Shown: positions 8,752 to 52,465 of the stretch, one piece after another
Layout of the letters: every line of letters starts with the position of its first letter
How positions within the stretch are numbered: the first letter of the stretch is position 1
Assembly (NCBI RefSeq): GCF_000013565.1
Contig: NC_007802.1
Location: 1,426,001 to 1,490,000, forward strand
DNA from: Jannaschia sp. CCS1
GTDB lineage: Bacteria; Pseudomonadota; Alphaproteobacteria; Rhodobacterales; Rhodobacteraceae
DNA length: 64,000 nt
Direction: 5' to 3'
Program-made: the position numbers and the translations under genes
Notes under the pieces: generated by a model
What the model saw: the letters and a program-made list of their open reading frames with translations, nothing else
Told to the model about the DNA's origin: nothing
Databases searched by the model: none

Positions 8752-9683
8752 GCCGTGTCCTTCGCAAGAACGCGTGGACCTTCGGGCTAGTCGGTCTGCT
8801 ATGTGCTTTGCTTGTGATCACAAAATTGATTCAACCGGGTTTTGGCGTCAGCGGTTTGGAAAGCCTTGCGCGCGCAGCGCTCCCCTTCGCATTTGCGACA
8901 GCGGCTATGGCGATCGTTGTCATCGTTGGCGGAATTGACCTGTCCATCGCGTCGATGATGGCGGTTTGCGGCGTGACGGCGGCGGTTTTGATGCAGAGCA
9001 TGGGCGTGATACCTGCGGTTGTGATCACACTGCTTGTGGGGCTGGCGATGGGGGCGTTGAATGGCGCGTTAATCGTGTTAACCAAAGTGCCTGACATCGT
9101 CGTGACGCTCGCCATGCTGTTTGTGTGGGAGGGCGTCGCATTGTTGATCCTGACATCCCCGGGGGGCACCGTCGCCCCGGTACTGCGCGCTCTGATCTCT
9201 GGCACGGTCATCCCCGGCATCCCGAATGCGTTGATTTTCATGGGTTTAACGATTGCGTTAGTGTGGTTTCCGATCCGCCGCGCGAAACTGGGCCTGTCGA
9301 TCTACGCGGTGGGCTCGGATGAGCTGGCGGCCTTCCGGTCCGGTATTAACGTCGGAGGGACCAAGGTCATCGCCTATGGTTTGGCGGGTGTCCTGTCCGC
9401 GCTCGGCGGGCTTTCGTTAATCATGTTGACGGGGATCGGAGAGCCTGTGCCCGGGCCGTATCTTCTGGCCTCTGTGGCCGCCGTGGTCCTGGGCGGCGTG
9501 GTCCTGGGCGGCGGGAAGGGCGGCCTTCTGGGACCGATCATTGCGGTCTTCATCCTACGCATCATCCGCACGATCCTGACCTTCGCCGCCGTTGATCCCA
9601 ATGTGACAACGATTGTCGAAGGTGTCATTATGGTGGCTGTGCTCATGCTCGGCGCGGTTTTGACTTACAGGGGGACGCGCTGA
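8748..9683 (+). CDS. CUT2 sugar ABC transporter permease (RbsC-like)
   Basis: A 311-residue hydrophobic permease with about eight to ten predicted membrane helices. It carries the motif IVVIVGGIDLSIASMMA near residues 50-66 and the glycine-rich loop LGGVVLGGGKGG near 245-256, which in RbsC-type permeases contacts the ATPase. The start overlaps the ATPase stop (ATGA) and the stop overlaps the next start (TGATG), so the three membrane-complex genes are translationally coupled. It pairs with the second permease to form a heterodimeric channel, as in other inositol or autoinducer-type CUT2 importers with two permeases. The gene contains one exact copy of the dispersed GTTAA element. Confidence 0.92.
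   Translation: MSRVLRKNAWTFGLVGLLCALLVITKLIQPGFGVSGLESLARAALPFAFATAAMAIVVIVGGIDLSIASMMAVCGVTAAVLMQSMGVIPAVVITLLVGLAMGALNGALIVLTKVPDIVVTLAMLFVWEGVALLILTSPGGTVAPVLRALISGTVIPGIPNALIFMGLTIALVWFPIRRAKLGLSIYAVGSDELAAFRSGINVGGTKVIAYGLAGVLSALGGLSLIMLTGIGEPVPGPYLLASVAAVVLGGVVLGGGKGGLLGPIIAVFILRIIRTILTFAAVDPNVTTIVEGVIMVAVLMLGAVLTYRGTR
9068..9082. repeat. Dispersed GTTAAC-N3-GTTAAC element, copy 1
   Basis: GTTAATCGTGTTAAC inside the first CUT2 permease gene, read as Leu-Ile-Val-Leu-Thr with the rare Leu codon TTA used twice. A degenerate copy (GTTAATCATGTTGAC) lies at 9416-9430 in the same gene. Confidence 0.7.
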
Positions 9684-10711
9684 TGAGCGATCAACCTCGC
9701 ATTCACGCCGACGCGGCGATGGAGACCGGACTGAAACGGTTCGGGCGGTATCTGGCCGACAATCCGGTGATCCCGCTGATCGCCTTCCTCTTCCTGTTGA
9801 TCGCTGTGCTGGAGATCATGCGCCCCGGCATCGTGACACCGTTTCGCGCCGGGCGGGATGGGATCATTTCGACCTTCTGGGTCGGCAATTTGATCAAATT
9901 CGCGATCCCACTGGCGATGCTCGCGGCCTGCCAAGTGTTAACCATGTTAACTGCCGGCATCGACATGAGCGCTGGCATTCTTGCGACCGTTGCGGCCTTC
10001 GTTTGTGCCACGCTGTCGCCGCTGATTGGCGTCACGCCCGCCGTCCTTGTCGCGCTTGGCGCCGGGGTTGTCGCGGGCCTGGTGAACGGGTTCGGCGTGG
10101 GGGTCGTGCGGGTGCATCCGCTGATCATGACGCTGGGGACGGGCTTGATCGCGACGGGTTGTCTTCAGGTCTATCAACGCTTCGTCATCTCGACCGGGAC
10201 CCTGATCCCCGAGGCGCTGGAATGGCTTGGCACCGGGCGCACGGCGGGGCTACCCAACGGGCTTTTCGTCTTCATCCCCTTTGCCGCGATTATCCTTTAT
10301 ATTATGCGGTTTACGGGCTTCGGGCGGCTCCTTTTTGCGCTGGGTTCCAATGAGGCGGCGACCAAGCTCAGCGGGGTGCGGTCGTGGCAGGTCTACCTCG
10401 CGCTCTACGCGCTCTCGGGCCTGATCGCGGCGCTTGCGGGGCTGCTCTATCTTGGCATGATCCGCACACCGTCTCTTTCCTTGGCCAACCCGCTTCTTCT
10501 GCCGTCGGTGGCCGCCGCCGTAATCGGTGGCACCTCCATCTTCGGCGGGCGGGGCAGCTTTGCTGGCGCCATCGTAGGGGCCTTGATCCTGCGCGTGATC
10601 GACACGATGCTGACGCTGCTGCAAATGCCCGAGGGCGCACGGATCGCGCTGTTCGGTCTGATCATCCTTCTCGTCACCGCGCTATATGTGCGCATCACAG
10701 GGGCCCGTTAA
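9683..10711 (+). CDS. CUT2 sugar ABC transporter permease, second subunit
   Basis: A 342-residue RbsC-family permease. It has a longer cytoplasmic N-terminus than its neighbour (about 25 residues before the first membrane helix), the motif LTAGIDMSAGILATV near residues 89-103 and the loop VIGGTSIFGGRG near residue 280 that is typical of these subunits. The ATG overlaps the upstream stop by one base, and the gene ends with TAA two bases before the next ATG. The two permeases are clearly diverged from each other, so they form a heterodimer rather than a recent duplication. It contains a perfect copy of the GTTAAC doublet. Confidence 0.92.
   Translation: MSDQPRIHADAAMETGLKRFGRYLADNPVIPLIAFLFLLIAVLEIMRPGIVTPFRAGRDGIISTFWVGNLIKFAIPLAMLAACQVLTMLTAGIDMSAGILATVAAFVCATLSPLIGVTPAVLVALGAGVVAGLVNGFGVGVVRVHPLIMTLGTGLIATGCLQVYQRFVISTGTLIPEALEWLGTGRTAGLPNGLFVFIPFAAIILYIMRFTGFGRLLFALGSNEAATKLSGVRSWQVYLALYALSGLIAALAGLLYLGMIRTPSLSLANPLLLPSVAAAVIGGTSIFGGRGSFAGAIVGALILRVIDTMLTLLQMPEGARIALFGLIILLVTALYVRITGAR
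9937..9951. repeat. Dispersed GTTAAC-N3-GTTAAC element, copy 2
   Basis: GTTAACCATGTTAAC, a perfect doublet, read as Leu-Thr-Met-Leu-Thr (residues 86-90) in the second permease. Confidence 0.75.
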
Positions 10712-10713
10712 CC

Positions 10714-12905: not shown

Positions 12906-12910
12906 CACTC

Positions 12911-17256: not shown

Positions 17257-17258
17257 GA

Positions 17259-18635
17259 ATGGATTTCAAGACGCTCCCCTCTGACAATCTGCGGTTGGAG
17301 AACGTGACGATTCCTGGGTGCCTGATCGGGCAATCGGGCGTTGTGCGCACAGCGCTGAGTATCGCCGACGGTGTGATCGCCGCGAGTGGTGGCACGCCGG
17401 TCGATATGAGGGGGGCGATGGTGTTTCCCTGTTTCGTCGACATGCACACGCATCTGGACAAGGGCCATATCTGGCCCCGCTCGCCCAATCCCGACGGCAC
17501 GTTCATGGGGGCGCTGGAGACGGTGCGCGCAGACAAATCGGGGCGGTGGGACAGTGTTGATCTGCCGCCGCGCATGAATTTCAGCCTGAACTGCGCCTAC
17601 GCCCACGGCACGCGGGCCATTCGAACCCATCTGGACTATTTTGGAGAGACTGACGAGGCGCGGGTCAGCTGGGACGTCTTCGCACAGATCCGTGACGACT
17701 GGGCCGGTCGGATTGATCTTCAGGCCGCTGTGTTGACGGGGATCGACATGGCCGCTGATGCCGGCGCTTTGGCAACTTGCGCAGACCTTGTGGCGTCCCA
17801 TGGCGGCGCTCTCGGGGCCGTGACCTATCCGGAGCCGGACCTGCGCGCTTGGTTAACTGCATACTTTGAGGCGGCTGCGCTGCGTGGGATGGACCTGGAT
17901 TTCCACGTGGATGAGACAATGGATCCAGAGGTTAACACCCTTAAGGATATTGCGGAAATTGTGCTAGAGACAGGATTTAAAGGGAAAATCACCGTGGGCC
18001 ATCTCTGCTCCCTGTCGGTGATGGAAGACGCGGTGGCCATGGCCACTCTTGATCTGGTCGCCAAGGCCGGGCTCGATGTCGTCAGTCTGCCGATGTGCAA
18101 CCTGTATCTGCAAGACCGCCACGCCGCGCGCACGCCGCGAGGCCGGGGCATCACTTTGGTGCACGAGATGAAGGCGCGGGGCATCAACGTCAGTTTCGCC
18201 TCAGACAACACCCGAGATCCGTTCTATGCCTACGGTGATATGGACATGATCGAGGTGATGCGGGAGGCCACGCGCATTGGCCATCTGGACCACTCCGATG
18301 ACGATTGGACCCATGCGTTTCTGGGCAATCCTGCCCGGGCCTGTGGCGTCACGGCACCGTCGTTGATGCCCGGAGCACCCGCCGATTTGGTGATTTGCCG
18401 CGCCCGCGAATGGACGGAACTTTTCGCCCGCCCGCAGGCTGACCGGATCGTGCTGCGTGATGGGCGCCAGATTGATCGCGCTTTGCCGGATTACGCCGAA
18501 TTGGATTACCTTATGACGCCCTCAAGCAGCGAAGCGGTGGGGCAGAAAGCATCGCCCTCAAGCAGCGAAGCGGTAGGGCAGCACGCATCGCCCTCAAGCA
18601 GCGACGCGGTCGGGCAGGGAGAGATCGCCAAATGA
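17259..18635 (+). CDS. Cytosine-deaminase-like amidohydrolase with repeat tail
   Basis: A 458-residue metal-dependent amidohydrolase close to the cytosine/isoguanine deaminase group. Seen are the HTHLDKGH metal-binding motif near residue 63, the LDFHVDE strand with His and Glu, GHLCSL with another His, and the metal-binding Asp in FASDNTRDPFYAYGD. Members deaminate or hydrolyse N-heterocycles including cytosine, creatinine and ammelide-like compounds. ATG at 17259 is preferred because AAGAGGGA sits seven bases upstream, although ATG at 17253 would overlap the permease stop. The last 35 or so residues carry a 12-residue unit repeated three times (S-rich, EAVGQ core), outside the catalytic fold. 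The stop overlaps the FAD-oxidase start. Confidence 0.88.
   Translation: MDFKTLPSDNLRLENVTIPGCLIGQSGVVRTALSIADGVIAASGGTPVDMRGAMVFPCFVDMHTHLDKGHIWPRSPNPDGTFMGALETVRADKSGRWDSVDLPPRMNFSLNCAYAHGTRAIRTHLDYFGETDEARVSWDVFAQIRDDWAGRIDLQAAVLTGIDMAADAGALATCADLVASHGGALGAVTYPEPDLRAWLTAYFEAAALRGMDLDFHVDETMDPEVNTLKDIAEIVLETGFKGKITVGHLCSLSVMEDAVAMATLDLVAKAGLDVVSLPMCNLYLQDRHAARTPRGRGITLVHEMKARGINVSFASDNTRDPFYAYGDMDMIEVMREATRIGHLDHSDDDWTHAFLGNPARACGVTAPSLMPGAPADLVICRAREWTELFARPQADRIVLRDGRQIDRALPDYAELDYLMTPSSSEAVGQKASPSSSEAVGQHASPSSSDAVGQGEIAK
17931..17945. repeat. Dispersed GTTAAC-N3-GTTAAC element, copy 3
   Basis: GTTAACACCCTTAAG in the amidohydrolase gene, read as Val-Asn-Thr-Leu-Lys. Confidence 0.6.
18519..18617 (+). 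repeat. 36-bp tandem repeat, 2.75 copies, in-frame
   Basis: Units begin at 18519, 18555 and 18591, each starting CCCTCAAGCAGCGA and containing CGGT-GGGCAG. The period is a multiple of three, so the repeat adds 12-residue units (PSSSEAVGQ core) to the protein C-terminus. The unit can fold with CCCT pairing AGGG. The third copy is slightly diverged (Asp for Glu). Confidence 0.9.
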
Positions 18636-20038
18636 ACATCCAGGCAGCTATAAAGACCCTTCAGGACAAGGGGATAGAGGTCGACCTTAATCCTGCTTCC
18701 GTCAAATCGAAATCCCGCGACTTCTTTTGGTATTCACCCGTCCTCAAGGATCGTCTGGATCATGTCGTGGCCGACTTCGTGGCCACGCCGCATAGTGAGG
18801 CGCAGGTGATCGAAATTCTGCGTGTCTGCTATGGCCACGACGTCCCTGTCACCACGCGCGGCACGGGCACTGGCAACTACGGCCAAGCCATGCCTTTGGC
18901 GGGTGGTTGTGTATTGCATCTGCATAAGATGAACGCCGTTAAGGATATTGCGCCAGGGCGCGTTGTGGTGGAGCCGGGGTGTCTTTTGAAAGACCTGGAT
19001 GCCGCGTGTATCGCGGATTCCGGCCAGGAAATCCGCATGTTTTCAAGTACATGGGCGACTGCCACGATTGGCGGTTTCATCGCTGGCGGCTCGGGCGGAG
19101 TGGGTTCTGTGCGGTGGGGGGCGTTGCGCGATCCCGGTAACATCATCCGCTTGCGCGTCGTCACGATGGAGCAGGAACCCCGCGTGATGGACATCACCGG
19201 AGATGATCTTCACCGCGTCAGCCACGCCTATGGCACCAACGGCATCATTACGGAGATCGAGATCCCGCTGGCCCCAGCCTATGATTGGGTCGGCGTTTTC
19301 GTCGCCTTTGATAGCTTCGATGAGGCATTGCAATATTCCTATGATTTGGCCTCTTGCGACGGCCTTTTGATCAAGCTCGCCACGGTGTTTGAGGCCCCCA
19401 TCGCCAAAGATTATTTCCAGCGTGTCGCCCCCCATGTTGAGGCCGGTGAGGCGCTCGTTGCTCTTATGGTCGCCCCTCACGCCATGGCCGGGTGGGAGAC
19501 GTTTACCAACACCTACGATGCCCGTCCGATTTACCGCAGTGACGCGACGAACTGGCCGAAAGATCCCGGCCACGTTTTTGAGTATGGCTGGAATCACACG
19601 ACGCTCCGCGCGCTCAAGGTCGACCCGTCGATCACCTATCTTCAGATCGCATACGGCACCGACGATCCTGTTTCTTTGGCCAAGACCACGCGGGATGAGC
19701 TAAGTCCCGAATGCCTGCAACACATTGAAGTCATGCGGCAAAATGGGCGCGTTTCTATGGCCGGATTGACCCTGGTCAAGTTCCAGTCGGAAGAGCGGCT
19801 TGATGAAATCGTGGCGCTGCACGAGGCGAAAGGGGCGATGAACTTCAACCCGCACCGCTACACCCTCGAGGAGGGCGGGCGTCAGGCGGTCGATACCCGA
19901 CAGCTGGAATTCAAGCGCGAGGCCGATCCGAAAGGCCTGCTCAATCCGGGCAAGATGATCTCGTGGGAGGATCCGGATTACAACTTCGACCAGATGTATG
20001 CCTGGCCCGGCCTGCAATCGAAACCGGCGGCGGAGTGA
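18632..20038 (+). CDS. FAD-linked oxidase, VAO/GlcD family
   Basis: A 468-residue flavoprotein of the vanillyl-alcohol-oxidase/glycolate-oxidase GlcD type. The FAD (PCMH) domain spans about residues 45-220, with the pyrophosphate-binding stretch TTRGTGTGNYGQ and the later GGFIAGGSGGVGS. The C-terminal oxidase domain ends with NPGKMISW, the typical family ending. The ATG overlaps the amidohydrolase stop (ATGA). No membrane segment or signal peptide is seen. It presumably oxidises an alcohol or 2-hydroxy acid generated in the pathway; the flavodoxin-fold reductases downstream could be redox partners. No specific substrate is readable. Confidence 0.85.
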   Translation: MNIQAAIKTLQDKGIEVDLNPASVKSKSRDFFWYSPVLKDRLDHVVADFVATPHSEAQVIEILRVCYGHDVPVTTRGTGTGNYGQAMPLAGGCVLHLHKMNAVKDIAPGRVVVEPGCLLKDLDAACIADSGQEIRMFSSTWATATIGGFIAGGSGGVGSVRWGALRDPGNIIRLRVVTMEQEPRVMDITGDDLHRVSHAYGTNGIITEIEIPLAPAYDWVGVFVAFDSFDEALQYSYDLASCDGLLIKLATVFEAPIAKDYFQRVAPHVEAGEALVALMVAPHAMAGWETFTNTYDARPIYRSDATNWPKDPGHVFEYGWNHTTLRALKVDPSITYLQIAYGTDDPVSLAKTTRDELSPECLQHIEVMRQNGRVSMAGLTLVKFQSEERLDEIVALHEAKGAMNFNPHRYTLEEGGRQAVDTRQLEFKREADPKGLLNPGKMISWEDPDYNFDQMYAWPGLQSKPAAE

Positions 20039-20620
20039 ATGGCGAAGGCACTGGTAATCTACGCCCATCCGGTTCCGGAAAGCTTGGGCGGGGCCGCACA
20101 TATGACTGTGGTTAACACCCTTAACAAAATGGGGTGGGAGGTTGATGATTGTGATCTCTATGCCGAGAGGTTTGACCCGGTCCTCAGCGCGGAAGAGCGG
20201 CGCGGCTACCACGACACCGTCACCAACATCGCGCCTGTCCAAGCCTACGTTAACCGTCTGCGCGCTGCTGATGCGGTGATCTTCTGCTTTCCCGTCTGGA
20301 ACTTTGGCTACCCGGCGATCCTGAAGGGATGGTTTGACCGGGTTATGTTGCCCGGCGTGTCCTTCCAGCTTGCTGACGGCAAACTGACGCCTTGCCTCGA
20401 CAACATTCGCAAGCTAGCCGCTGTCACAACCTATGGAAGTACGCCGTGGCGGGCCTTTCTGGCCGGTGATCCGCCGAAGAAGTTGCTCAAGCGTGTGGTG
20501 TGGGGCACGGTGCGCCCAGACAAAATTCGCTATATTGCCCAATATGATATGAACAACATCACGCCTGCCGGATGCGATGCATTTCTGGCCCGCGTCACCC
20601 GTGAAATGGAGGCATTTTAG
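20039..20620 (+). CDS. NAD(P)H-quinone/flavodoxin-fold oxidoreductase
   Basis: A 193-residue protein of the NQO1/KefF/MdaB flavodoxin-like family. It begins LVIYAHPVPES, the FMN/FAD phosphate-binding start, and has the active-site segment FPVWNFGYPAILKGWFDRV. It is directly abutted to the FAD oxidase stop (TGAATG) and to the following paralogue (TAGATG), so the three are coupled. It could reduce a quinone or an N-heterocyclic intermediate with NAD(P)H. Similarity to the next gene (HP start, WYG/WNFGYPAxLKGW core) suggests an old tandem duplication followed by divergence, possibly forming a heterodimer. Confidence 0.85.
   Translation: MAKALVIYAHPVPESLGGAAHMTVVNTLNKMGWEVDDCDLYAERFDPVLSAEERRGYHDTVTNIAPVQAYVNRLRAADAVIFCFPVWNFGYPAILKGWFDRVMLPGVSFQLADGKLTPCLDNIRKLAAVTTYGSTPWRAFLAGDPPKKLLKRVVWGTVRPDKIRYIAQYDMNNITPAGCDAFLARVTREMEAF
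20111..20125. repeat. Dispersed GTTAAC-N3-GTTAAC element, copy 4
   Basis: GTTAACACCCTTAAC in the first flavodoxin-fold gene, read as Val-Asn-Thr-Leu-Asn (residues 25-29). Confidence 0.65.
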
Positions 20621-22703: not shown

Positions 22704-24218
22704 TCAGCTTTCCGGGTACGCGCCACCGGCTTGCGTTCGGCGTGCGATGTCGTCTTGAAGGGCGCTCAGGCGATCTCCGTTAACCGTCGGGCTTTTCGGG
22801 TCGGCGAGGATACCCTGCCACACATCGCGCGCGCGGGTGGAGGCATCTTTTGAACCTCGCTCGGTCCACGTGCCGAAGTTCGCGTAGTCGTGGATGATGG
22901 GCTCATAGAACTCTGTCTGGTAGCGGGCCATCGTTTGGGCGGTGGCGAAAAAATGGCCGCTGGGGGCCGTGTCTTCGATCGCATCCAGGCCAATCTCGGC
23001 ATCGCTTGCCTGCGCTCCGGCACAGAGCTCTGCCACCATGTTGAGAACTTCTGCGTCGGTAATAAGCTTTTCATATGAGATGCTTAACCCACCTTCCAAC
23101 CAGCCTGCCGAGTGAATTACAACGGTTGCCCCAGCCATGAGGCAGCCCCAAAGGCCAAACTGGTTTTCATTGGCCGCCTGGACGTCGTTGAGGTTGGCGG
23201 CCGATCCTGCTGCAGATCGCCACGGAAGGCCGATATGGCGTGCCAATTGACCGGCCGCAAGGGAGGCTTGGAAATGAGATGGCGTCCCAAACGCGGGCGC
23301 ACCGGATTTCATGTCGACATTGGATGTGAAAGTTCCGTAGCAAACGGGCGCGCCGGGATTGGTTAACTGCGTTAATGTAATCGCGGCCAGCGCTTCGGCA
23401 TGGGACAGGGTGATTGCGCCCGCCACGGTGATCGGAGCCATTGCCCCCATCAAGGTAAATGGCGTGACAATGGAAATCTGACCCATCCGCGCGAAATCAA
23501 TCAGTCCCTGCGCCATCGGTACATCCAGCGTGCGTGGCGAATTGGTATTGATGATCGTGTAACACCTTGGTTCCGCTTCGAACTCTGCGTCCGACAATCC
23601 CCTGAAATCGCGGAGCATCTCGAAGCTTTCCGTCACCTGCGGCGTTCCGCGAGAGAAGATGAAGGGGAATTTGTTGCTCTCGGTCAACTGGCACTCAAGG
23701 GTGAAGTAGTGACGGATATTGGTGGCGATATCTTGGGGCTCCACCAATGGCGGGAGCATGTGGAAGACGTCGAAGTGATTGGTTAACTGGATTAACTCTT
23801 TGAAGTCACGGGCGCAGCCGGGACGGCGACCGCGGACCTCATCGGTTGCATGTGGCGCACCGGCACCGGGCTGAAAGACGAGCGAGCCCAGTTCCAGCAC
23901 GACGTCCCGCTCAGGCGCGCCGGCGCGACCCTCAATCCGACGCGGCGCGGAGGCCAGAGACGCCTCAACGATGTCCCGCCCGATATAGACCATGTCGTCC
24001 TTCACCATCGCGCCCGCCGTGGCGAAGATGGCGCGGGCTTCTGGCAGTAGAACCTTGATGCCAAGGCGTTCAAGGATGTCCAATCCCGCGTCATGCATCG
24101 CCTCGATCCGGTCCGCCGGGAACACATTCATCGGTGGGAAGGGATTGCGGAGTTGGCCGTACTGCGTCACCCGCGCCGAAGCCCGCGGAGCATTGCGGTT
24201 GCGACGTCTGTTGCTCAT
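22704..24218 (-). CDS. MttB-family (non-pyrrolysine) methyltransferase
   Basis: A 504-residue protein of the trimethylamine methyltransferase (MttB) superfamily, a TIM barrel. Hallmarks are the central PFTLMGAMAPITVAGAITLSHAE region and the SNVDMKSGAPAFGTPSH segment. The frame reads through without an in-frame amber codon, so it is the pyrrolysine-free type, members of which demethylate quaternary amines such as glycine betaine or related betaines. No cognate corrinoid protein is in the window. Its start overlaps the upstream dehydrogenase stop by four bases, implying that a methylated amine is demethylated and then oxidised by the partner. Two copies of the GTTAAC element lie inside the gene. 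Confidence 0.9.
   Translation of the reverse strand: MSNRRRNRNAPRASARVTQYGQLRNPFPPMNVFPADRIEAMHDAGLDILERLGIKVLLPEARAIFATAGAMVKDDMVYIGRDIVEASLASAPRRIEGRAGAPERDVVLELGSLVFQPGAGAPHATDEVRGRRPGCARDFKELIQLTNHFDVFHMLPPLVEPQDIATNIRHYFTLECQLTESNKFPFIFSRGTPQVTESFEMLRDFRGLSDAEFEAEPRCYTIINTNSPRTLDVPMAQGLIDFARMGQISIVTPFTLMGAMAPITVAGAITLSHAEALAAITLTQLTNPGAPVCYGTFTSNVDMKSGAPAFGTPSHFQASLAAGQLARHIGLPWRSAAGSAANLNDVQAANENQFGLWGCLMAGATVVIHSAGWLEGGLSISYEKLITDAEVLNMVAELCAGAQASDAEIGLDAIEDTAPSGHFFATAQTMARYQTEFYEPIIHDYANFGTWTERGSKDASTRARDVWQGILADPKSPTVNGDRLSALQDDIARRTQAGGAYPES
23362..23376. repeat. Dispersed GTTAAC-N3-GTTAAC element, copy 5
   Basis: GTTAACTGCGTTAAT in the MttB-like gene; on the coding (minus) strand it reads Leu-Thr-Gln-Leu-Thr with two TTA codons. 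Confidence 0.65.
23782..23796. repeat. Dispersed GTTAAC-N3-GTTAAC element, copy 6
   Basis: GTTAACTGGATTAAC, also in the MttB-like gene, 420 bp from copy 5; coding strand reads Leu-Ile-Gln-Leu-Thr. Confidence 0.65.
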
Positions 24219-26620
24219 CCCCGCATCGCTGTGCCCGAGGAATCATAGGGCGACGGAGGGATCACTTTCGCGGCGCGTTCACTGCCCACGACATGGACGG
24301 ACAGATCGGTTCCATCCGCGGCCAGGTCCGCCCTAACCATCGCCATCGCAAGGGATTTCTGGACCGTATGGCCGTAGCCACCCGACGTCACGAAGCCCAC
24401 GATGTCTCCGCTATGCCAGACCGGCTCATAGCCGACGGGGTCTGCGCCATCGGCGTCAATTTCCAAGGTGACAAGCCGTTGTGCAGGCCCGTTTCCGTCG
24501 CGCTCAGCCACCGCGCCTGCCTTGCCGATGAAGTCCTTTTCCCAGTCAATCCAGCGGTCCATTCCGGTCTGGGCGGGTGTGTAGCCCTGGGTGAATTCAG
24601 CGGACCAGATGCCGAAGGATTTTTCCAGACGTGTCGATAGAAGGGCGTTGAACCCGACCTCGCGGATGCGATCGTCGGCCCCTGCTTCCAGGAGCATGTC
24701 TCGCAATGTGATGTGGTCTCCGTAGCGGCAGTTGATCTCGTACCCGCGCTCGCCGGTCACGCTCATTCGGGCGACCTTTGCCTCGATCAGGCCGACGTCA
24801 AATGTTGCGCATCCCATGAACGGCATCGGTGCGAGGTCATATGTCACCAGCTTTTGCAGCACCGAGGTGGATTTCGGGCCAGCAAGGGAAAACCCGCAAA
24901 TCTCTTCCCCCAGATCGCGGACGTTAACGCCGTTAACCAAATGATCGTCAAACCACCGCATATGCCACGCGCGCAGGTAGTAGCTGCCCATGACCCACCA
25001 TGTGCCATCGCCCCAGTTGAACACCGTCAGATCACCCATCAGACGACCGCTGTCCCCCAGCATCGGGGCCAGTTTCGCACGACCTCGCCCGGGGAGTTTG
25101 GAGGCCATCATCCGGTCCAGCCAGCGCTCCGCCTCAGGGCCCGTGACTTCGAACCGAGAGAAGCCGGTAATGTCCAGAAGCGCCACACCCTCACGAACCG
25201 CGCGACATTCCTCAGCCACGATACCGTGAGCGTTGGAGCGTTTAAGGGTAAGATTTTCAACGAAATCTTCTGACGGTGCGAAATAGAGGGGCACCTCCAG
25301 ATCCCAGGATTGGCCCCACCGGCAACCCGCCCTTGTCATACCCTCATAGGCGGGTGCGCGTTTCAATGGGCGCCCGGCGGTAAGCTGTTCGTTGGCGTAG
25401 GACATCACGAACCGGCGGGAGTAGAACTGACCTGTCGTCTGCCGAATATACTCGCGGTTCTCGGCAAACTTGCCGTAGCGCGCGACGTCCATGGAGTAGG
25501 TGTCGGCCTCCGTCTCGCCATAGATCATCCATTCCGCGAGCGACTTGCCCACGCCGCCGCCCTGCAGGAAGCCTGCCATGACCGCACAGGCGCACCAGTA
25601 GCCGTTAACGCCGTTAACCGGTCCCACCAATGGGTTTCCATCGGGCGAGAACGTAAACGCACCATTCACCCAGGTCTTCACGCCGGTGGTTTGCAGGGCG
25701 GGGTAGCGCTCAAACCCCAAGATCAGCTCATTCTCGATCCGGTCGGTCTGTTCCTGAAACAGCTCCATCCCGTAATCCCAAGGCGCACCATCCATCGCCC
25801 AGTGCTCATGGTTCACCTCGTAGATCCCCAGAAGCAGGCCCTTCTGGTCTTGTCGCATATACGTGAAGCCCTCAAGGTCGACGGTCATCGGCACTTCAAA
25901 GTCCAATGCCTCCAGCTCGGGGATGGTGTCAGAGATCAGATAATGATGCTTCAGTGGCGAAACCGGCAGCTCAATCCCTGCCATGCGGCCCACTTGCTTG
26001 GCCCAAAGACCGCCCGCATTCACCACATGGTCACAGGTGATCGTGCCCTTGTCGGTGACGATCTTCCAACCGTCCTTGGTCTGGATCAGTTCTTCCACCT
26101 TGGTGTGCTCATAATACTCCGCGCCGCGCAGTTTGGCGGCGGTCGCATAGGCGTGGACGGTGCCCGTGGTGTCCACGTATCCCTCCCGATCCGCCCAAAG
26201 GGCGCCGATGACGCCGTCGGTGGACATGATCGGGCAGGCCTGTTTTGCCTCGTCCGGGGTCATCAGATGGCAGTCGGTGATGCCGATGGCCTGGAAGGTG
26301 CGGTAGGCCGATTGCAGCCATTCCCACCGCTCCGGCGTGCCGGCGAGCGTCAGTCCGCCGGTCATGTGTAGTCCGATGTTCTGGCCGGATTCAGCTTCAA
26401 TTTCTGACAGCAGATCAATGGTATAGGCTTGCAAAGCCGCCATGTTGGGGTCGGCGTTCAATGCGTGAATGCCGCCCGCCGCGTGCCAGCTTGAACCTGC
26501 GGTCAAAACACTGCGTTCGAGCATGCAGACGTCTGTCCAGCCAAACTTCGCCAGATGATAGAGCACCGAGGAGCCAACTACCCCGCCGCCGATCACGACC
26601 GCTCTGTAATGGGTTTTCAT
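24215..26620 (-). CDS. Dimethylglycine/sarcosine dehydrogenase-like FAD-GcvT fusion
   Basis: An 801-residue two-part enzyme. The N-terminal half (about 1-400) is a DAO-type FAD oxidoreductase with GGGVVGSSVLYHL and the segment LTAGSSWHAAGG, whose His matches the covalent FAD attachment site of dimethylglycine and sarcosine dehydrogenases. The C-terminal half (about 415-800) is a GcvT-like tetrahydrofolate-binding aminomethyltransferase. Such enzymes oxidatively demethylate N-methyl amino acids and pass the one-carbon unit to tetrahydrofolate. ATG at 26620 has GGAGG eight bases upstream. It starts the operon with the MttB homologue and TetR gene. The exact methylamine is not assignable. Confidence 0.9.
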   Translation of the reverse strand: MKTHYRAVVIGGGVVGSSVLYHLAKFGWTDVCMLERSVLTAGSSWHAAGGIHALNADPNMAALQAYTIDLLSEIEAESGQNIGLHMTGGLTLAGTPERWEWLQSAYRTFQAIGITDCHLMTPDEAKQACPIMSTDGVIGALWADREGYVDTTGTVHAYATAAKLRGAEYYEHTKVEELIQTKDGWKIVTDKGTITCDHVVNAGGLWAKQVGRMAGIELPVSPLKHHYLISDTIPELEALDFEVPMTVDLEGFTYMRQDQKGLLLGIYEVNHEHWAMDGAPWDYGMELFQEQTDRIENELILGFERYPALQTTGVKTWVNGAFTFSPDGNPLVGPVNGVNGYWCACAVMAGFLQGGGVGKSLAEWMIYGETEADTYSMDVARYGKFAENREYIRQTTGQFYSRRFVMSYANEQLTAGRPLKRAPAYEGMTRAGCRWGQSWDLEVPLYFAPSEDFVENLTLKRSNAHGIVAEECRAVREGVALLDITGFSRFEVTGPEAERWLDRMMASKLPGRGRAKLAPMLGDSGRLMGDLTVFNWGDGTWWVMGSYYLRAWHMRWFDDHLVNGVNVRDLGEEICGFSLAGPKSTSVLQKLVTYDLAPMPFMGCATFDVGLIEAKVARMSVTGERGYEINCRYGDHITLRDMLLEAGADDRIREVGFNALLSTRLEKSFGIWSAEFTQGYTPAQTGMDRWIDWEKDFIGKAGAVAERDGNGPAQRLVTLEIDADGADPVGYEPVWHSGDIVGFVTSGGYGHTVQKSLAMAMVRADLAADGTDLSVHVVGSERAAKVIPPSPYDSSGTAMRG
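24923..24937. repeat. Dispersed GTTAAC-N3-GTTAAC element, copy 7
   Basis: GTTAACGCCGTTAAC, a perfect doublet in the dehydrogenase gene; coding strand reads Val-Asn-Gly-Val-Asn. Confidence 0.75.
25604..25618. repeat. Dispersed GTTAAC-N3-GTTAAC element, copy 8
   Basis: GTTAACGCCGTTAAC, identical to copy 7 and in the same gene 681 bp away, again read Val-Asn-Gly-Val-Asn but in an unrelated protein region. Confidence 0.75.
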
Positions 26621-26741: not shown

Positions 26742-26756
26742 GTTAACGAGGTTAAC
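26742..26756. repeat. Dispersed GTTAAC-N3-GTTAAC element, copy 9
   Basis: GTTAACGAGGTTAAC, a perfect doublet straddling the stop codon of the PMT glycosyltransferase gene (the stop is the TTA at 26752-26754), so about half the element is non-coding. Confidence 0.75.
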
Positions 26757-33952: not shown

Positions 33953-35047
33953 ATGGCGATCAATGCAAGCAACGTATCTGCCGGGGCTGCGCTGGAGGTT
34001 CTGCACGCTGGTTGGGCCGCGCAACAGGCGGGTGAATTAACCACGTCCTGGATGCTGCACGGACGGCCAGGTGTGGGAAAAACAGATATTATTCAACAGC
34101 TTGCCATTGAAGTTGGGGCGGAGCTTTTCGATCTGCGATTGACCACGATCGAGCCTCAGGATCTGCGTGGCCTTCCGTTCTACGATCACGAGGCTCGGAA
34201 GACGGTTTGGTATCGGCCGGAGGATCTACCGGATCGCGACAGCCCTGCGATATTGTTTCTTGACGAGTTGACTGCGGCCGCGCCCAGTCTGCAACCCACG
34301 GTGTATGGCTTACTTCAAGAGCGGCGGGTGGGACGGCACCGGTTGCCGAAGGGCGTGTTCATCGTTGCGGCTGGAAACACTGTCGATGACGGCGCGGTTG
34401 CTTATGAAATGGGTACCGCCCTGTCGGATCGCCTGGTGCACATCGTCGTGCGCGCGGATGCGGATGATTGGCTCAAAACCTATGCACCAAAAGCTGGCAT
34501 TCACCCGACCGTCGCAGCCTTTCTCCGAACCCGCCCGGACCTTCTTGAAACGACTGAGGCCGCATTGCGGCGGGGTGACGCTGTCGCCTGCACGCCACGC
34601 GCCTGGTCTCGCGTCAGCTTGATCATGGACATGACCGTATCCCGGGCCACGCGCCACATCATGATCGCCGGTACCCTTGGCGAGGCTGTAGCCGCCGAGT
34701 TCGTTTTGATGGCCGATGAGATTGCCGCGACCGTGCAGATTGACGCGATGTTGGCCAGTTCGCGCGCCGAACGAGCGGAGCTTTACCCAAGAACGTTGCA
34801 CGGGTTAACGGCGTTAATCTACGGCTTGGTGGGTGCTGTCGATGAGGTAAGCGCTGCTGTCGGGATTGAAATTCTCAATGATCTCAGATCATTGGAGAGG
34901 CGCGGCGTGCCAGTTGCCGAGCTTGCCACGTTTGGATTTGAACTTCTGATTGCCCGGGCGATGGATCGGGGCTGGCAGGAGGTGTTCGCCGCGTCCGACG
35001 CCTACGCGGACTATGCGCGGGAGCGGGCGGCCGCAGGATTGCCGTGA
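33953..35047 (+). CDS. MoxR-type AAA+ ATPase
   Basis: A 364-residue AAA+ ATPase. Walker A is GRPGVGKTD near residue 37, Walker B is ILFLDELTAA near residue 100, and the sensor-1-like VAAGNTVDD segment near 138 completes the MoxR-type core. MoxR ATPases act as chaperone-like remodellers working with VWA-domain proteins. The stop overlaps the VWA gene start by four bases (ATGA), indicating 1:1 synthesis. Upstream lies the small membrane protein. No substrate is evident. Confidence 0.9.
   Translation: MAINASNVSAGAALEVLHAGWAAQQAGELTTSWMLHGRPGVGKTDIIQQLAIEVGAELFDLRLTTIEPQDLRGLPFYDHEARKTVWYRPEDLPDRDSPAILFLDELTAAAPSLQPTVYGLLQERRVGRHRLPKGVFIVAAGNTVDDGAVAYEMGTALSDRLVHIVVRADADDWLKTYAPKAGIHPTVAAFLRTRPDLLETTEAALRRGDAVACTPRAWSRVSLIMDMTVSRATRHIMIAGTLGEAVAAEFVLMADEIAATVQIDAMLASSRAERAELYPRTLHGLTALIYGLVGAVDEVSAAVGIEILNDLRSLERRGVPVAELATFGFELLIARAMDRGWQEVFAASDAYADYARERAAAGLP
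34804..34818. repeat. Dispersed GTTAAC-N3-GTTAAC element, copy 11
   Basis: GTTAACGGCGTTAAT in the MoxR gene, read as Leu-Thr-Ala-Leu-Ile with two TTA codons. Confidence 0.65.
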
Positions 35048-39401: not shown

Positions 39402-40910
39402 TCATTCGCCCCGGGGAAAGCGTTGATTTTCCTCAAGAACGTTGAGGTCCATGTGGTTGCGCATGTAGCGCTCGGACGCGTCGCGCAGGGGTTGAAAATC
39501 CCACGGGTAGTAGGCGCCGTTGCGCAGCGCCTCGTAGACGACCCAGCGGCGGGCCTGGGATTGCCGAACGTTTGCGTCGAACGCCTCCAGATCCCAGCGG
39601 GCGGCTGCCTTGACCCGAAACGCCTCCAAGGTCGCCGCATGGGCGGGGTTTTCGGACAGGTCGTTCAGCTCATGGGGATCGGCGGCCAGATCGAACAATT
39701 GCTCCGGATCAATCGCGCAATTGGTGTATTTCCATTGGCCTTGGCGCAGGCCCACGACGGGAGAGTACGACCCTTCCGCCGCGTATTCCATCGCCACCGG
39801 ATTGACCCGTTTGGCGCCCTTTCCTAACGGCGTTAACGTTTCGCCATCGGTCCACGGCATCACCTCGTCCATCGACACGCCCGCGAGGTCGCAAAGGGTG
39901 GGGCAGAGGTCGATGGTGGAGACCGGGTCCGAGACCATCCCAGGCTCCATCCCCGGCGCGGAGATCATCAGCGGCACGCGAGCCGAGCCCTCATAGAAGG
40001 ACATTTTGAACCACAAGCCACGTTCGCCTAACATGTCACCGTGGTCCGAGATGAAGATCACGATCGCCTCCTGCCGCGTGCGCTCCAGCACGTCCAGCAC
40101 GCCGCCGATCTTCTGATCGAGGTAGGAGATGTTGGCGAAATAGGCCTGGCGCGACCGGGCGATGTCCTGATCCGTAATATCGAAATTACCCAGATCATTC
40201 GCGTCCAGAATGCGCTTGGAATGGTTGTCCTGCTCTGCATAGGGGATCGCCCCGATCTCAGGTATCAAGCGATTGCAATCGTTATACAAATCCCAGAACT
40301 CGCGGCGCGCGACATAGGGGTCATGGGGGTGGGTGAAACTGACCGTCAGACACCACGGGCGCCGATCGGCCCCACGCGACAGGTCGTAGAGTTTTTGCTC
40401 CGCCTCAAACGCCACGGCGTCGTCATATTCCATCTGGTTGGTGATCTCAGCAACGCCGGATCCGGTGACGGAGCCCATGTTGTGATACCACCAATCGATC
40501 CGCTCACCGGGCTTGCGGTAGTCCGGCGTCCAACCGAAATCAGCCGGGTAGATATCCGTGGTCAGCCGCTGTTCAAACCCGTGCAGCTGGTCCGGCCCCA
40601 CAAAATGCATCTTGCCCGACAACGCAGTATAGTAGCCCGCACGGCGCAGGTGATGGGCGTAGGTCGGGATTGACGACGTGAATTCCGCGGCGTTGTCATA
40701 GACGCCGGTGCGCGACGGTAATTGGCCCGACATGAACGACGCGCGGGCCGGCGCGCAGAGTGGAGAGGCGGTATACGTGTTGGCAAATCGTGTGGAGCGG
40801 GCTGCCAAGCGGTCCAGATTGGGCGTGTGCAGCCAGTCCGCCGGGCCGTCCGGGAACAACGTGCCGTTCAACTGATCCACCATTACTATCAGGATGTTAG
40901 GTTGGGTCAT
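39402..40910 (-). CDS. betC: Choline sulfatase
   Basis: A 502-residue type I sulfatase. The modification motif CxPxR (LCAPARASFMSG) is at residues 53-64 or so, with Cys converted to formylglycine by another enzyme, and the metal-binding DHGDMLGERG is near residue 295. It hydrolyses choline-O-sulfate to choline, extending the pathway to a common marine osmolyte. ATG at 40910 overlaps the stop of the zinc-ribbon gene (ATGA); an alternative TTG 12 bases earlier is less likely. No signal peptide, so the enzyme is cytoplasmic. Confidence 0.94.
   Translation of the reverse strand: MTQPNILIVMVDQLNGTLFPDGPADWLHTPNLDRLAARSTRFANTYTASPLCAPARASFMSGQLPSRTGVYDNAAEFTSSIPTYAHHLRRAGYYTALSGKMHFVGPDQLHGFEQRLTTDIYPADFGWTPDYRKPGERIDWWYHNMGSVTGSGVAEITNQMEYDDAVAFEAEQKLYDLSRGADRRPWCLTVSFTHPHDPYVARREFWDLYNDCNRLIPEIGAIPYAEQDNHSKRILDANDLGNFDITDQDIARSRQAYFANISYLDQKIGGVLDVLERTRQEAIVIFISDHGDMLGERGLWFKMSFYEGSARVPLMISAPGMEPGMVSDPVSTIDLCPTLCDLAGVSMDEVMPWTDGETLTPLGKGAKRVNPVAMEYAAEGSYSPVVGLRQGQWKYTNCAIDPEQLFDLAADPHELNDLSENPAHAATLEAFRVKAAARWDLEAFDANVRQSQARRWVVYEALRNGAYYPWDFQPLRDASERYMRNHMDLNVLEENQRFPRGE
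39823..39837. repeat. Degenerate GTTAAC-doublet in betC
   Basis: CCTAACGGCGTTAAC keeps the 9-bp period but the first half is CTAA rather than TTAA. Listed as a possible decayed copy, not counted in the 15. Confidence 0.4.
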
Positions 40911-41161: not shown

Positions 41162-41730
41162 CGGATCGCGACTTCCAGATAATCGGTGACGCGGGCAATG
41201 GCCGCCTCTGCGTTTGGCGGGCCCAGGTCGGCCAAAGCGTGGCGAATATAGAGGCCGTCGATCAGCGCCGCGGCCGTCGCGGCGATGCGCGGCGCGTCAT
41301 TGGTTAACGGCCTTAACGCATGGGTCAGATTGGACACCAGCCGGTGCTGATAAACGCGCAACAGCCGTGCGGCCTGATCGTCCCGTTGCGCCATGACGTA
41401 GAAGGTGAGCCAGGCCGCCACGACTTCGGGCCGGAAATTCTGCCCGCCGAAAGAGGCACGGGTGATGGCCACCAACCGCTCCATCGGGGTCGTCGCGCGG
41501 GCCAGTTGCGCGCGCGCTTCCGTCCCGAACTCCGCCAGGATAGCCCGCATCGCCGCCAGCAAAAGATCGTCCTTGGAGCCGAAATAATGATGCGCCAGCG
41601 CTGAAGACACGCCCGCTGCCTTGGCGATCTGCCCCATGGTCACGTCCAGAGACCCCCGCCGCCCGATCTCGGCAATCGTCGCGTTGACAAGCGCGTCCTT
41701 CCGTATAGCCATCATACCTGTGCGGGGCAT
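41158..41730 (-). CDS. betI: Transcriptional regulator BetI
   Basis: A 190-residue TetR-family repressor with the BetI-type N-terminus PRTGMMAIRKDALVNATI and the helix-turn-helix MGQIAKAAGVSSALAHHYFG. In other bacteria BetI represses bet genes and choline relieves this. ATG at 41730 is chosen because it gives the standard BetI start and has AAAGGTG seven bases upstream; longer in-frame reading would run through the operator. A strong palindrome lies at 41771-41790 in the divergent region towards choX. Confidence 0.93.
   Translation of the reverse strand: MPRTGMMAIRKDALVNATIAEIGRRGSLDVTMGQIAKAAGVSSALAHHYFGSKDDLLLAAMRAILAEFGTEARAQLARATTPMERLVAITRASFGGQNFRPEVVAAWLTFYVMAQRDDQAARLLRVYQHRLVSNLTHALRPLTNDAPRIAATAAALIDGLYIRHALADLGPPNAEAAIARVTDYLEVAIR
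41303..41317. repeat. Dispersed GTTAAC-N3-GTTAAC element, copy 12
   Basis: GTTAACGGCCTTAAC in betI; coding strand reads Leu-Arg-Pro-Leu-Thr. Confidence 0.65.
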
Positions 41731-42776: not shown

Positions 42777-42791
42777 GTTAACGATCTTAAG
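42777..42791. repeat. Dispersed GTTAAC-N3-GTTAAC element, copy 13
   Basis: GTTAACGATCTTAAG starts eight bases after the choX stop and ends one base before the terminator stem: a fully intergenic copy, so the element is not tied to coding constraints. Confidence 0.65.
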
Positions 42792-45278: not shown

Positions 45279-46318
45279 GCACCGCCGTGTCCTTCCGCGA
45301 TGTCTGCATCATGTTCGGCCCCCGCCCGGCCCGCGCCCTGAGCCTTGCGGATGAAGGCGGCACAAGGTCCGAGATTCAATCCGCGACGGAGCATGTTCTG
45401 GGCGTTCACGATTGTTCGCTGGATGTGGAGGAGGGGGAGATCCTCGTTCTCATGGGCCTGTCTGGCTCCGGCAAATCCACGCTTTTGCGCGCGGTTAACG
45501 GCCTTAACCCTGTGGCCCGGGGACAGGTCGAAGTGCGCGACGGCGATTGGTCCTGCACGCTGCCCGGCGCCTCGGTCGCGGACCTGCGTTACCTGCGGCA
45601 GAACTGCGTTTCCATGGTCTTTCAACAGTTTGGCCTGCTGCCATGGCGCACAGTGCGCGAGAATGTCGGCCTTGGGCTGGAGCTTGCGGGGCAATCGGCT
45701 ACGGCCCGGGCAGAGGCGGTGGACAAGCAATTGGCGCTCGTGAACCTCAGCGAATGGGGGGATCGCAAGGTGGGCGAATTGTCTGGCGGCATGCAGCAGC
45801 GCGTTGGCCTGGCCCGCGCCTTCGTCACCGACGCCCCGATCCTTCTGATGGATGAGCCGTTCTCCGCCCTTGATCCCCTGATCCGTTCCAAACTGCAGGA
45901 CGAGCTGCTGGACCTCCAGCGCGACCTGAAACGCACCATCATCTTCGTCAGCCATGACCTGGATGAGGCGTTCAAGATCGGCAACCGCATCGCGATCCTG
46001 GAAGGGGGCCGCATCGTGCAGATCGGCACGCCCCGGCAGATCTTCTCGGAACCCGCGACGGGCTACGTGGCCGAATTCGTCTCTAACATGAACCCCTTAG
46101 GCGTTCTGACCGCACGCGACGTCATGCAAGACGTGCCCACCGACGCGCCCCGGATCCCGGTGGAAATGCCCGTCAAAGACATCCTTGCGCGATTTGCGGA
46201 CACGCCTGCGCCCCTCGCCGTTGAGGAAGACGGAGAGGTCATCGGCACCGTAACGACCGACAGCGTCGCCGCGCGTCTCGGCACGCCGGAGGCCGGGCAT
46301 TCAACCTCTCCGGCTTAG
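45275..46318 (+). CDS. choV: Choline ABC transporter ATPase
   Basis: A 347-residue ProV/OpuAA-type ATPase. Walker A is GLSGSGKST near residue 67, Q-loop VFQQFGLLPW, signature LSGGMQQR and Walker B LLMDEPFSALDP. The C-terminal 65 residues form a short CBS-like regulatory region (EDGEVIGTVTTDSVAARLG). N-terminal residues 1-45 show the extended MFGPRPARAL region of quaternary-amine ATPases. Start overlaps the GFA gene (ATGA). With ChoX and ChoW it completes a choline importer. Confidence 0.95.
   Translation: MSTAVSFRDVCIMFGPRPARALSLADEGGTRSEIQSATEHVLGVHDCSLDVEEGEILVLMGLSGSGKSTLLRAVNGLNPVARGQVEVRDGDWSCTLPGASVADLRYLRQNCVSMVFQQFGLLPWRTVRENVGLGLELAGQSATARAEAVDKQLALVNLSEWGDRKVGELSGGMQQRVGLARAFVTDAPILLMDEPFSALDPLIRSKLQDELLDLQRDLKRTIIFVSHDLDEAFKIGNRIAILEGGRIVQIGTPRQIFSEPATGYVAEFVSNMNPLGVLTARDVMQDVPTDAPRIPVEMPVKDILARFADTPAPLAVEEDGEVIGTVTTDSVAARLGTPEAGHSTSPA
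45494..45508. repeat. Dispersed GTTAAC-N3-GTTAAC element, copy 14
   Basis: GTTAACGGCCTTAAC in choV, identical to copy 12 in betI but on the opposite coding strand and frame: read Val-Asn-Gly-Leu-Asn. Confidence 0.65.
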
Positions 46319-49012: not shown

Positions 49013-49112
49013 GGGCGTTCACCTGTCGTAAAGCGCGTGTGCCTGTAATATATGAAGGGCAGGGGCGCCGGACAAGACACTGCTCAAGATCGCCCTGTTG
49101 GAGGCAGACAAG

Positions 49113-50303: not shown

Positions 50304-50305
50304 AT

Positions 50306-50671: not shown

Positions 50672-50709
50672 CCGGCTCTGATTGACCACGGCGCGCGGCG
50701 TGATAAACG

Positions 50710-50735
50710 CACGGGTGATCTTCAAAGGACCCGTG
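50710..50735 (+). promoter_or_regulatory. Hairpin enclosing argS ribosome-binding site
   Basis: CACGGGT and ACCCGTG form a perfect 7-bp stem whose loop and 3' arm include the AAAGGA Shine-Dalgarno at 50724-50729, eight bases before the argS ATG. It could limit translation initiation or be autoregulated. Confidence 0.5.
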
Positions 50736-50737
50736 AC

Positions 50738-52465
50738 ATGACCCTCTTCGCCGAGATCCGCGATACCGTTTTGGCCGCTATTGATACGCTCGTGGCTGAT
50801 AATGTGCTGCCTTCTGGGCTGGAAATGCGCGCCGTCACGGTGGAGCCGCCGCGCGATGCCTCCCACGGGGATATGGCGACGAATGCCGCGATGGTGCTGG
50901 CCAAACCCGCAGGCATGAAGCCACGCGATATAGCGGAGGCTTTGGCCGCCAAGCTGGCCGATGACGCGCGGATCGACACCGTTGACGTCGCCGGGCCGGG
51001 CTTCCTGAACCTGCGCCTGTCGGGGGATGTTTGGCGCGGCGTGATCGCGGACGCTCTGACCCAGGGCGAGGCTTATGGGCGGTCGAAAATCGGCGCGGGT
51101 AAGCGGGTAAACGTCGAATATGTCAGCGCAAATCCCACTGGCCCGTTGCATGTGGGCCACACGCGGGGGGCGGTGTTTGGCGATGCATTGGCCTCGCTTC
51201 TGGACGTTGCTGGCTATGACGTGACGCGGGAATACTACATCAACGACGGCGGTGCGCAGGTCGATGTTCTCGTGCGGTCGGTCTATCTGCGCTACCTGGA
51301 AGCGCACGGCCAAGACGTCGCATTTGAGGATGGAACCTATCCCGGCGACTATCTGATCGACGTGGGACAGGCGCTAAAGGACAAGGTCGGCGACGCGTTC
51401 GTCGACAAGGGAGAGCAGTTCTGGCTGGCCGAGATCCGGGAGTTCGCGACCGAACAGATGATGGATCTGATCCGTAAGGATCTGGCCCTGCTCGGCGTCG
51501 AAATGGATGTCTTCTACAGTGAAAAATCGCTCTACGGGACGGGCCGGATCGAGGCGGCGATTGACGATCTGCGCGGCAAGGGCCTGATCTATGAAGGCTA
51601 TCTTGAGCCGCCAAAAGGCAAGACACCCGAGGATTGGGAGCCGCGCGAACAGACGCTGTTCAAGTCGACCGAACATGGCGACGATGTGGACCGCCCGGTG
51701 ATGAAGTCCGACGGCTCCTGGACCTACTTCGCGCCGGACATCGCCTATCATTTTGATAAGGTTTCCAGGGGGTTCGATGAATTGATCGACGTGTTTGGCG
51801 CGGATCACGGTGGCTACGTCAAGCGGATGAAGGCGGCCGTGTCTGCGCTGTCGGGCGGTGACGTTCCGCTGGATGTGAAGTTGACGCAGCTGGTGAAATT
51901 GCGGCGCGGTGACGAAGAGCTGAAGATGTCCAAACGGGCAGGGACCTTCGTGACGCTCGCCGATGTGGTGGAGATGGTGGGCGCGGATGTGACCCGGTTC
52001 CACATGCTGACCCGCAAGAACGACGCACCCCTTGATTTCGACGTCGACAAAGTGCGCGAGCAGTCGAAAGACAACCCGGTGTGGTACGTGCAATACGCCC
52101 ATGCGCGGATCAAATCCGTCCTGCGCAAGGCGGAGGAGGCGGGCATGTCGCCCGATCCCGCAAACCTTAACGCTGTTAACGATCCGGCAGAACTGGCGCT
52201 GGCGGCAAAAATCGCCGAATACCCGCGCCTGATCGAGATCGCCGCAAAGGGAAATGAGCCGCACCGCGTGGCCTTCTACCTCTTTGATCTGGCTTCCGAT
52301 TTTCACGGGCTCTGGAACAAGGGCAACGCAGAGACGCATCTGCGCTTCTTTCAGGATGATGACCCATCGGCCACATCCGGTAAATTGTGCCTGATTTCCG
52401 CCGTGGCGATTGTCATTTCAAACGGTCTTGGTATTTTGGGTGTCACTCCGGTCGATCAGATGTGA
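50738..52465 (+). CDS. argS: Arginyl-tRNA synthetase
   Basis: A 575-residue class I synthetase. The HIGH-type motif is in [14 protein letters not shown] near residue 130 and the KMSKS-type motif is KMSKRAG near residue 398. N-terminal Add-1 domain and C-terminal anticodon-binding DALR domain (ending with a complete GILGV-type tail) are present. It attaches arginine to tRNA-Arg. Lies downstream of dgt and upstream of the SPOR protein, as in many Rhodobacterales. Confidence 0.97.
52166..52180. repeat. Dispersed GTTAAC-N3-GTTAAC element, copy 15
   Basis: CTTAACGCTGTTAAC in argS, read as Leu-Asn-Ala-Val-Asn. The only copy in a core housekeeping gene and the last one in the window. Confidence 0.6.

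Follow-up and report, generated by a model that had tools for sequence, protein, structure and literature searches.

A dispersed palindrome around the replication terminus of Jannaschia sp. CCS1, probably the recognition site of a dimeric domain-marking protein

To our knowledge, few of the signals that define chromosome domains have a known consensus. The closest described systems are the matS sites of Escherichia coli (GTGACATTGTCAC) and P. thracensis (GTTACNNNGTAAC), which have an AC-N3-GT centre and at which, in E. coli, MatP unloads MukBEF (available portion of PMC8669397), and ZapT, which couples the terminus to the Z-ring in Caulobacter; the E. coli matS recognition sites extend over an 800-kb stretch, and ZapT, the alphaproteobacterial terminus binder that we found described, comes without a consensus motif (available portion of PMC7188993). 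Here we describe a pair of TTAA tetramers separated by five nucleotides (TTAA-N5-TTAA), which is dispersed over a 64,000-nucleotide stretch of Jannaschia sp. CCS1 (the window; positions 1,426,001-1,490,000 of a 4,317,977-bp contig; source genome coded G000) and far beyond it. This element is probably the recognition site, approximately GGTTAACGNCGTTAACC, of a dimeric sequence-specific protein that sets off the terminus-proximal half of the chromosome as a domain of its own. The motif is undescribed in the literature searched, including the available portions of PMC7188993, PMC7858052, PMC11043382, PMC2731167 and PMC8669397.

The window contains 15 TTAA-N5-TTAA pairs among a total of 88 TTAA tetramers, and no other spacing from 0 to 40 yields more than one pair (single pairs at 7, 17, 24 and 32). 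When one mismatch was allowed, 27 matches were found against 2.89 expected from dinucleotide-preserving shuffles, none of 100 of which reached 27. An initial annotation of the window had listed the same 15 pairs, each TTAA starting one base after the position given for it, together with fewer than 100 tetramers and almost no other close pairs, and these counts hold; the perfect GTTAAC-N3-GTTAAC copies number four (9937, 24923, 25604 and 26742, coordinates one base before each TTAA), not five as it had claimed. Its remark that copies are missing from 52-64 kb stands in that none lies past 52179 in the window, but the set continues for about 1 Mb outside, and its statement that copies occur on both strands is meaningless for a palindromic unit.

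The unit is a palindrome, as became apparent when the 44 copies in the genome were aligned on both strands. Taking into account that the TTAA cores are imposed by the search pattern, the evidence for symmetry comes from the letters outside them: G is preferred at position -7 (67 of 88), C at -2 (65 of 88) and G at -1 (60 of 88), and the central position is C or G in 70 of 88 cases, with only weak preferences farther outward. Judged by its letters, such a palindrome is the footprint expected for a dimeric protein, unlike a mobile repeat. Copies located within open reading frames (ORFs) occupy two of the three reading frames (33 of 33), the third being unused because a TAA stop would fall in frame.

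The copies are confined to one region of the chromosome. On the 4.318-Mb chromosome of G000, 43 of the 44 pairs lie between 1,435,069 and 2,439,487, and the remaining one, at 3,476,062, is off consensus; the second contig of this genome (~86 kb) carries none. The dnaA-dnaN-recF-gyrB genes (encoding DnaA, DnaN, a RecF-like protein and GyrB) are found at the start of the contig. Words resembling FtsK-orienting polar sequences (KOPS; GGGNAGGG) switch strand between 2,301,813 and 2,304,762, only two words in the 170 kb scanned being exceptions, and the gap at this switch contains a dif-like site, TTGGCCAGTAATCATGATTATGTTAAGT, whose core is a single-copy sequence in every one of the 13 genomes of the genus. 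The KOPS-like word is the E. coli consensus, and the bias expected near dnaA was not seen in 12 kb (0 forward and 4 reverse words). Dif is probably located at 2.302 Mb. Two other dif-like places, at 2.245 Mb (one mismatch) and in an AT-rich stretch at 1.512 Mb (two mismatches), have better consensus scores, but both were passed over for that at 2.302 Mb (three mismatches), because it lies within the KOPS-like switch and is present once in each of the 13 genomes, its recurrence in relatives being the only one checked. The AT-rich stretch in question (1,500,001-1,512,000, with the dif-like site near 1,511,572) and a second one (2,000,001-2,012,000) have GC contents of 0.52 and 0.51, compared with 0.60-0.65 nearly everywhere else sampled, and are possibly mobile elements.

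Sites were mapped relative to dif in six genomes of the genus, using the loose TTAA-N5-TTAA pattern in G000, TTAACNNNGTTAA in G012 and G004, and GTTAACNNNGTTAAC in G002, G006 and G009; G010 and G011, each consisting of several contigs, were left out of the map. As many as 153 of the 155 sites lie within a quarter of the chromosome from dif, and five of the six genomes carry several sites on both sides of it (argS side first: 24 and 9 in G012, 22 and 9 in G004, 16 and 5 in G002, 9 and 10 in G006, 4 and 3 in G009). In G000, with the argS side counted as negative, 42 sites are spread from -868 to -41 kb, one is at +137 kb and one at +1173 kb. In G006, dif separates ihfA from argS, whereas in G000, G002 and G012 both genes lie to one side of it, which suggests an inversion across the terminus.

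The motif is present in eight of the 13 genomes of the genus. In the eight positive genomes TTAACNNNGTTAA occurs 25, 33, 31, 38, 38, 10, 9 and 9 times, against 3, 2, 5, 1, 2, 6, 1 and 4 occurrences of its reversed controls (same order), and it is absent from the five negative ones (G001, G003, G005, G007 and G008, the last being 83% complete and in 320 contigs), where the reversed controls occur 1-4 times. Around argS the positives contain 15, 11, 10, 13, 5, 10, 5 and 4 pairs in 94, 80, 80, 80, 80, 60, 40 and 60 kb, respectively, and the negatives none in 80, 40, 60, 80 and 12 kb. In an unrooted tree built from ArgS, a FabH-like protein and the MerR domain, G008 falls next to the clade to which the window's species belongs (support 0.90), and the other four negatives group together beside G009; if both this tree and the incomplete genome of G008 can be trusted, the state of the motif would have changed at least twice within the genus. 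Outside it, one of 24 other genera sampled from the family has a single perfect site, as does each of three genomes among 24 sampled at a greater distance in the class.

The strict 17-mer was also found in 76 stretches of a wider genome collection, from which the window genome or its near relatives may have been left out. The many-copy genomes among the 34 loci inspected were two metagenome-assembled genomes, one of Mcinerneyibacteriota (8 stretches: L157, L169, L177, L184, L194, L201, L203 and L216) and one of Ignavibacteriae (5 stretches: L164, L193, L198, L209 and L211), in each of which a longer repeat contains GGTTAACGNCGTTAACC. These copies were rejected as equivalent sites, their common letters extending beyond the palindrome as in dispersed repeats. 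Another palindrome, TGCTCACGCGTGAGCA (16 bp, perfect; e.g. L126 position 457), was considered as an alternative terminus word in the negative genome G001, where five copies lie within ~200 kb of dif, but it was discarded since it is found across the whole chromosome; its 14-bp core is present in 29 copies in G001, 4 in G005, 1 in G007 and none in the other ten genomes of the genus. Leaving aside this palindrome and the words contained in it, dyads in the 400 kb around the dif of G001 score at most 22, compared with a score of 176 for TTAA-N5-TTAA in G000.

The pairs are far more frequent than the encoded proteins and codon use would predict. When synonymous codons were permuted within ORFs, leaving protein and codon use unchanged, the 58 ORFs of the window yielded a mean of 0.535 and a maximum of 4 pairs (1000 shuffles) against 13 observed, and the 1.406-2.412 Mb region, with 882 ORFs, averaged 2.5 pairs with at most 8 (200 shuffles), against 33 observed; the ORFs are mechanical picks, some of them spurious. 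TTAA itself is about half as frequent in the ORFs of this region (1,406,001-2,412,000) as in their shuffled versions (346 versus 751; 20 shuffles), and the pairs are therefore maintained against a general avoidance of the tetramer.

Moreover, the motif is kept at orthologous places. Fourteen of the 15 window sites were alignable; across them, all eight TTAA letters are retained in 30 of the 63 comparisons made with positive relatives, compared with 9329 of 56,172 (16.6%) for a control consisting of the same comb of positions at other offsets, these comparisons being non-independent because relatives share ancestry. With four negative relatives the corresponding values are 0 of 36 and 4375 of 32,289 (13.5%). 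The sites of the window, none of which is assigned to a strand, and three degenerate candidates are as follows (kept, in aligned positive and negative relatives):
9069..9081, no strand, site TTAATCGTGTTAA in an ORF; kept in 0/5 positive and 0/3 negative
9938..9950, no strand, perfect GTTAAC-N3-GTTAAC in an ORF; kept in 4/5 positive and 0/3 negative
17932..17944, no strand, site TTAACACCCTTAA in a cytosine deaminase family ORF; kept in the 1/1 aligned positive
18930..18942, no strand, possible degenerate site TGAACGCCGTTAA; one mismatch, candidate
20112..20124, no strand, site TTAACACCCTTAA in an ORF; kept in 0/2 positive
23363..23375, no strand, site TTAACTGCGTTAA in an ORF; kept in 2/4 positive and 0/3 negative
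23783..23795, no strand, site TTAACTGGATTAA in an ORF; kept in 1/4 positive and 0/3 negative
24924..24936, no strand, perfect GTTAAC-N3-GTTAAC in an ORF; kept in 3/4 positive and 0/3 negative
25605..25617, no strand, perfect GTTAAC-N3-GTTAAC in an ORF; kept in 1/4 positive and 0/3 negative
26743..26755, no strand, perfect GTTAAC-N3-GTTAAC at a gene edge; kept in 0/2 positive
27885..27897, no strand, possible degenerate site TGAACGGCGTTAA; one mismatch, candidate
29272..29284, no strand, site TTAACACCGTTAA in an ORF; kept in 0/7 positive and 0/3 negative
34805..34817, no strand, site TTAACGGCGTTAA in an ORF; kept in 2/4 positive and 0/3 negative
39824..39836, no strand, possible degenerate site CTAACGGCGTTAA; one mismatch, candidate
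41304..41316, no strand, site TTAACGGCCTTAA in a BetI-type TetR ORF; kept in 7/7 positive and 0/4 negative
42778..42790, no strand, site TTAACGATCTTAA, intergenic by the ORF picks; relatives could not be aligned
45495..45507, no strand, site TTAACGGCCTTAA in an ABC-transporter ORF; kept in 5/7 positive and 0/4 negative
52167..52179, no strand, site TTAACGCTGTTAA in argS; kept in 4/7 positive and 0/4 negative

At position 45495, GGTTAACGGCCTTAACCC of G000 is replaced in the negatives G003 and G007 by GGTCAACGGCCTCAACCC, with T changed to C at two third positions of otherwise the same codons; as these alignments indicate, the orthologous upkeep of the motif is partly achieved through third-base choice. 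Eleven of the 15 window sites are located in genes that the negatives also possess. Similarly, a second dense stretch (1.619-1.653 Mb) contains seven sites, and G001 has mostly the same genes there and no site.

The density of GTTAACGNCGTTAAC, with up to two mismatches, varies considerably along the G000 chromosome. Expressed per 100 kb, it is 0 at 1.406-1.435 Mb, 29.5 at 1.435-1.479, 0 at 1.479-1.575, 6.7 at 1.575-1.77, 1.7 at 1.77-2.00, 1.3 at 2.00-2.302 and 0 at 2.302-2.412 Mb. A 179-kb sample from elsewhere in G000 gives 1.1, and the 640 kb counted in the negative G001 give 0.5. The window is thus the densest stretch measured. Its argS gene is followed by genes for SPOR, glycosyl hydrolase 3, ScpA and ScpB proteins (window 52543-56071), so that scpA and scpB (54597-56071) are situated just past the dense end of the sites, an adjacency that may be a coincidence.

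Several observations weigh against the proposal that the sites mark a terminus domain. G000 is one-sided, in that the argS side of dif has 42 of its 43 domain sites, and its density peaks ~850 kb from dif, falling to 1.3 in the last 300 kb before it and to 0 in the 110 kb after it; this one-sidedness and the dense distal edge are not explained by a plain terminus-domain model. One of the five sites of G002 on the side of dif away from argS lies near its origin. The motif is lacking in five species of the genus and in almost every species sampled outside it, and, besides the shared ancestry of the relatives compared, four window sites (9069, 20112, 26743 and 29272) are kept in none of 16 positive comparisons. 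The reversed loose pattern occurs 27 times in the whole genome against 44 real pairs. Tighter forms of the pattern are more discriminating (25 versus 3 for TTAACNNNGTTAA, 15 versus 1 for another); the bare genome total is unremarkable by itself, and it is the location of the pairs that constitutes strong evidence. Across the whole region, 33 of 42 sites lie within ORFs, four at gene edges and five between genes, and although the ORF picks span 94% of the region, nine sites are therefore at edges or in gaps, an over-use because of which some sites may have a regulatory side. Finally, no binding protein was found; as the comparison for genes specific to positives covered a minor part of the genome, its gene may well be located elsewhere. 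At 1.61-1.65 Mb, compared with G001 only, there was no clear candidate for a gene limited to positives, and at 1.85-2.41 Mb there are 147 G000 ORFs, spurious ones included, without a match in the negative-species DNA compared, several of which resemble ordinary regulators by eye.

Among the rival explanations, the one that survives best, albeit as an unlikely one, is that the dense cluster beside argS-scpAB serves as the nucleation point of a protein similar to ParB, Noc or KorB, which then spreads, the outlying sites being secondary. The concentration of sites in one 44-kb stretch, with lower densities beyond, argues for it, as do G010 and G011, which have 11 and 10 loose-pattern pairs in the 80 kb around argS and only 9 copies each of TTAACNNNGTTAA genome-wide. 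However, none of the ParB_N proteins is restricted to positives, a second ParB_N family (~300 amino acids) being present in negatives and missing from the positive G002, and no gene specific to positives was found among the G010 ORFs of at least 60 amino acids around argS (12-94 kb per genome compared).

It is quite unlikely that the sites are bound by the MerR protein encoded beside ihfA, a presumed relative of ZapT. By sequence, this gene follows ihfA in all 13 genomes (Pfam MerR_1 in G000, the only genome tested), and in G000 ihfA lies at 1.772 Mb, within the site-bearing region; of the 10 places bound by Caulobacter ZapT, nine belong to the terminus region and most are within ORFs (available portion of PMC7188993). 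Yet that study found no consensus motif for ZapT, and the DNA-binding domain of the MerR protein is nearly identical in species with and without sites, that of the negative G008 resembling the positives. Eight alignment columns separate positives from negatives, the first being column 114, and none falls within the helix-turn-helix (HTH), so that this protein was rejected as the determinant of site presence.

Although the palindrome is shaped like an operator and nine of the 42 sites are at gene edges or intergenic, a set of transcription factor operators is very improbable, since 33 sites are inside ORFs and, in several species, they occupy one chromosome region only. Even less credit can be given to a terminus function unrelated to organisation, such as a replication-fork trap or a gene-transfer-agent packaging signal, despite the position of the sites around dif: fork traps are polar, unlike a symmetric site by itself, and nothing was found tying the sites to packaging, at which no test was aimed. 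Chance or codon usage, to which the 27 reversed loose patterns might point, is refuted by the codon-preserving and dinucleotide shuffles, by confinement to one region and by conservation above control.

From this evidence we infer that a protein binds the element. The initial annotation had interpreted the copies as dispersed binding sites of a protein involved, for example, in segregation or domain organisation, with selection acting on DNA and not on protein, and had asked for comparisons with codon-preserving shuffles, with relatives and with origin and terminus; the excess over shuffles in the window and the 1-Mb region, the retention in positives above control and the location in the terminus-proximal half all support its proposal, binding being putative, and neither of the two outcomes that it had named as refuting, a lack of excess over shuffles and a lack of conservation in relatives, was obtained. 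Its alternative of a silencer is unsupported: the sites mark a ~1-Mb region, and the genes are ordinary and syntenic wherever the negatives allow a comparison. A dimeric protein would read the palindromes and thereby set the terminus-proximal region apart; like MatP on matS, it might bridge or condense this region, act on Smc-ScpAB (likely the structural maintenance of chromosomes complex here), or link the region to the division machinery. We lean, by a little, towards a broader proposal of a MatP-independent chromosome-domain code, in which an address word and its putative reader organise the terminus-proximal half from a dense anchor cluster beside argS-scpAB, and which would have been gained or lost two or more times in the history of the genus.

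With a defined 17-bp word mapped in several genomes, the binder could be fished with one oligonucleotide (GGTTAACGCCGTTAACC) and the role of the sites tested by Hi-C. If the proposal is true, the negatives, which share gene content and gene order and have no sites, represent a natural experiment, and with such close relatives one can ask for what purpose a terminus domain is needed and in what way a chromosome-wide code arises or disappears.

ParB (at parS), KorB and Noc sites are palindromes that mark a chromosome region, as do those described here with their dense cluster, but the latter are located around the terminus and not the origin, and no ParB_N paralogue follows the motif. CtrA sites (TTAA-N7-TTAA) also consist of two TTAA halves; the spacing is 5 here, with one N7 against 15 N5 pairs in the window. 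ZapT of Caulobacter crescentus shares with our system terminus binding in an alphaproteobacterium, mostly within ORFs (available portion of PMC7188993), and a MerR homologue beside ihfA, but for ZapT no consensus motif was found, and the MerR HTH does not track the sites. The matS/MatP system differs in the arms and length of its site (GTGAC-N3-GTCAC versus TTAAC-N3-GTTAA within ~17 bp here); MatP (PF06303) was found in none of the 13 genomes at E values up to 1, while a control search matches in E. coli, the G000 sites are one-sided and dense at the edge, and in our sample site sets occur in some species of one genus only. Because the arms differ and MatP was not found, the motif is not classed as matS. 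What the two have in common is an odd palindrome with an AC-N3-GT centre, present in copies dispersed around the terminus.

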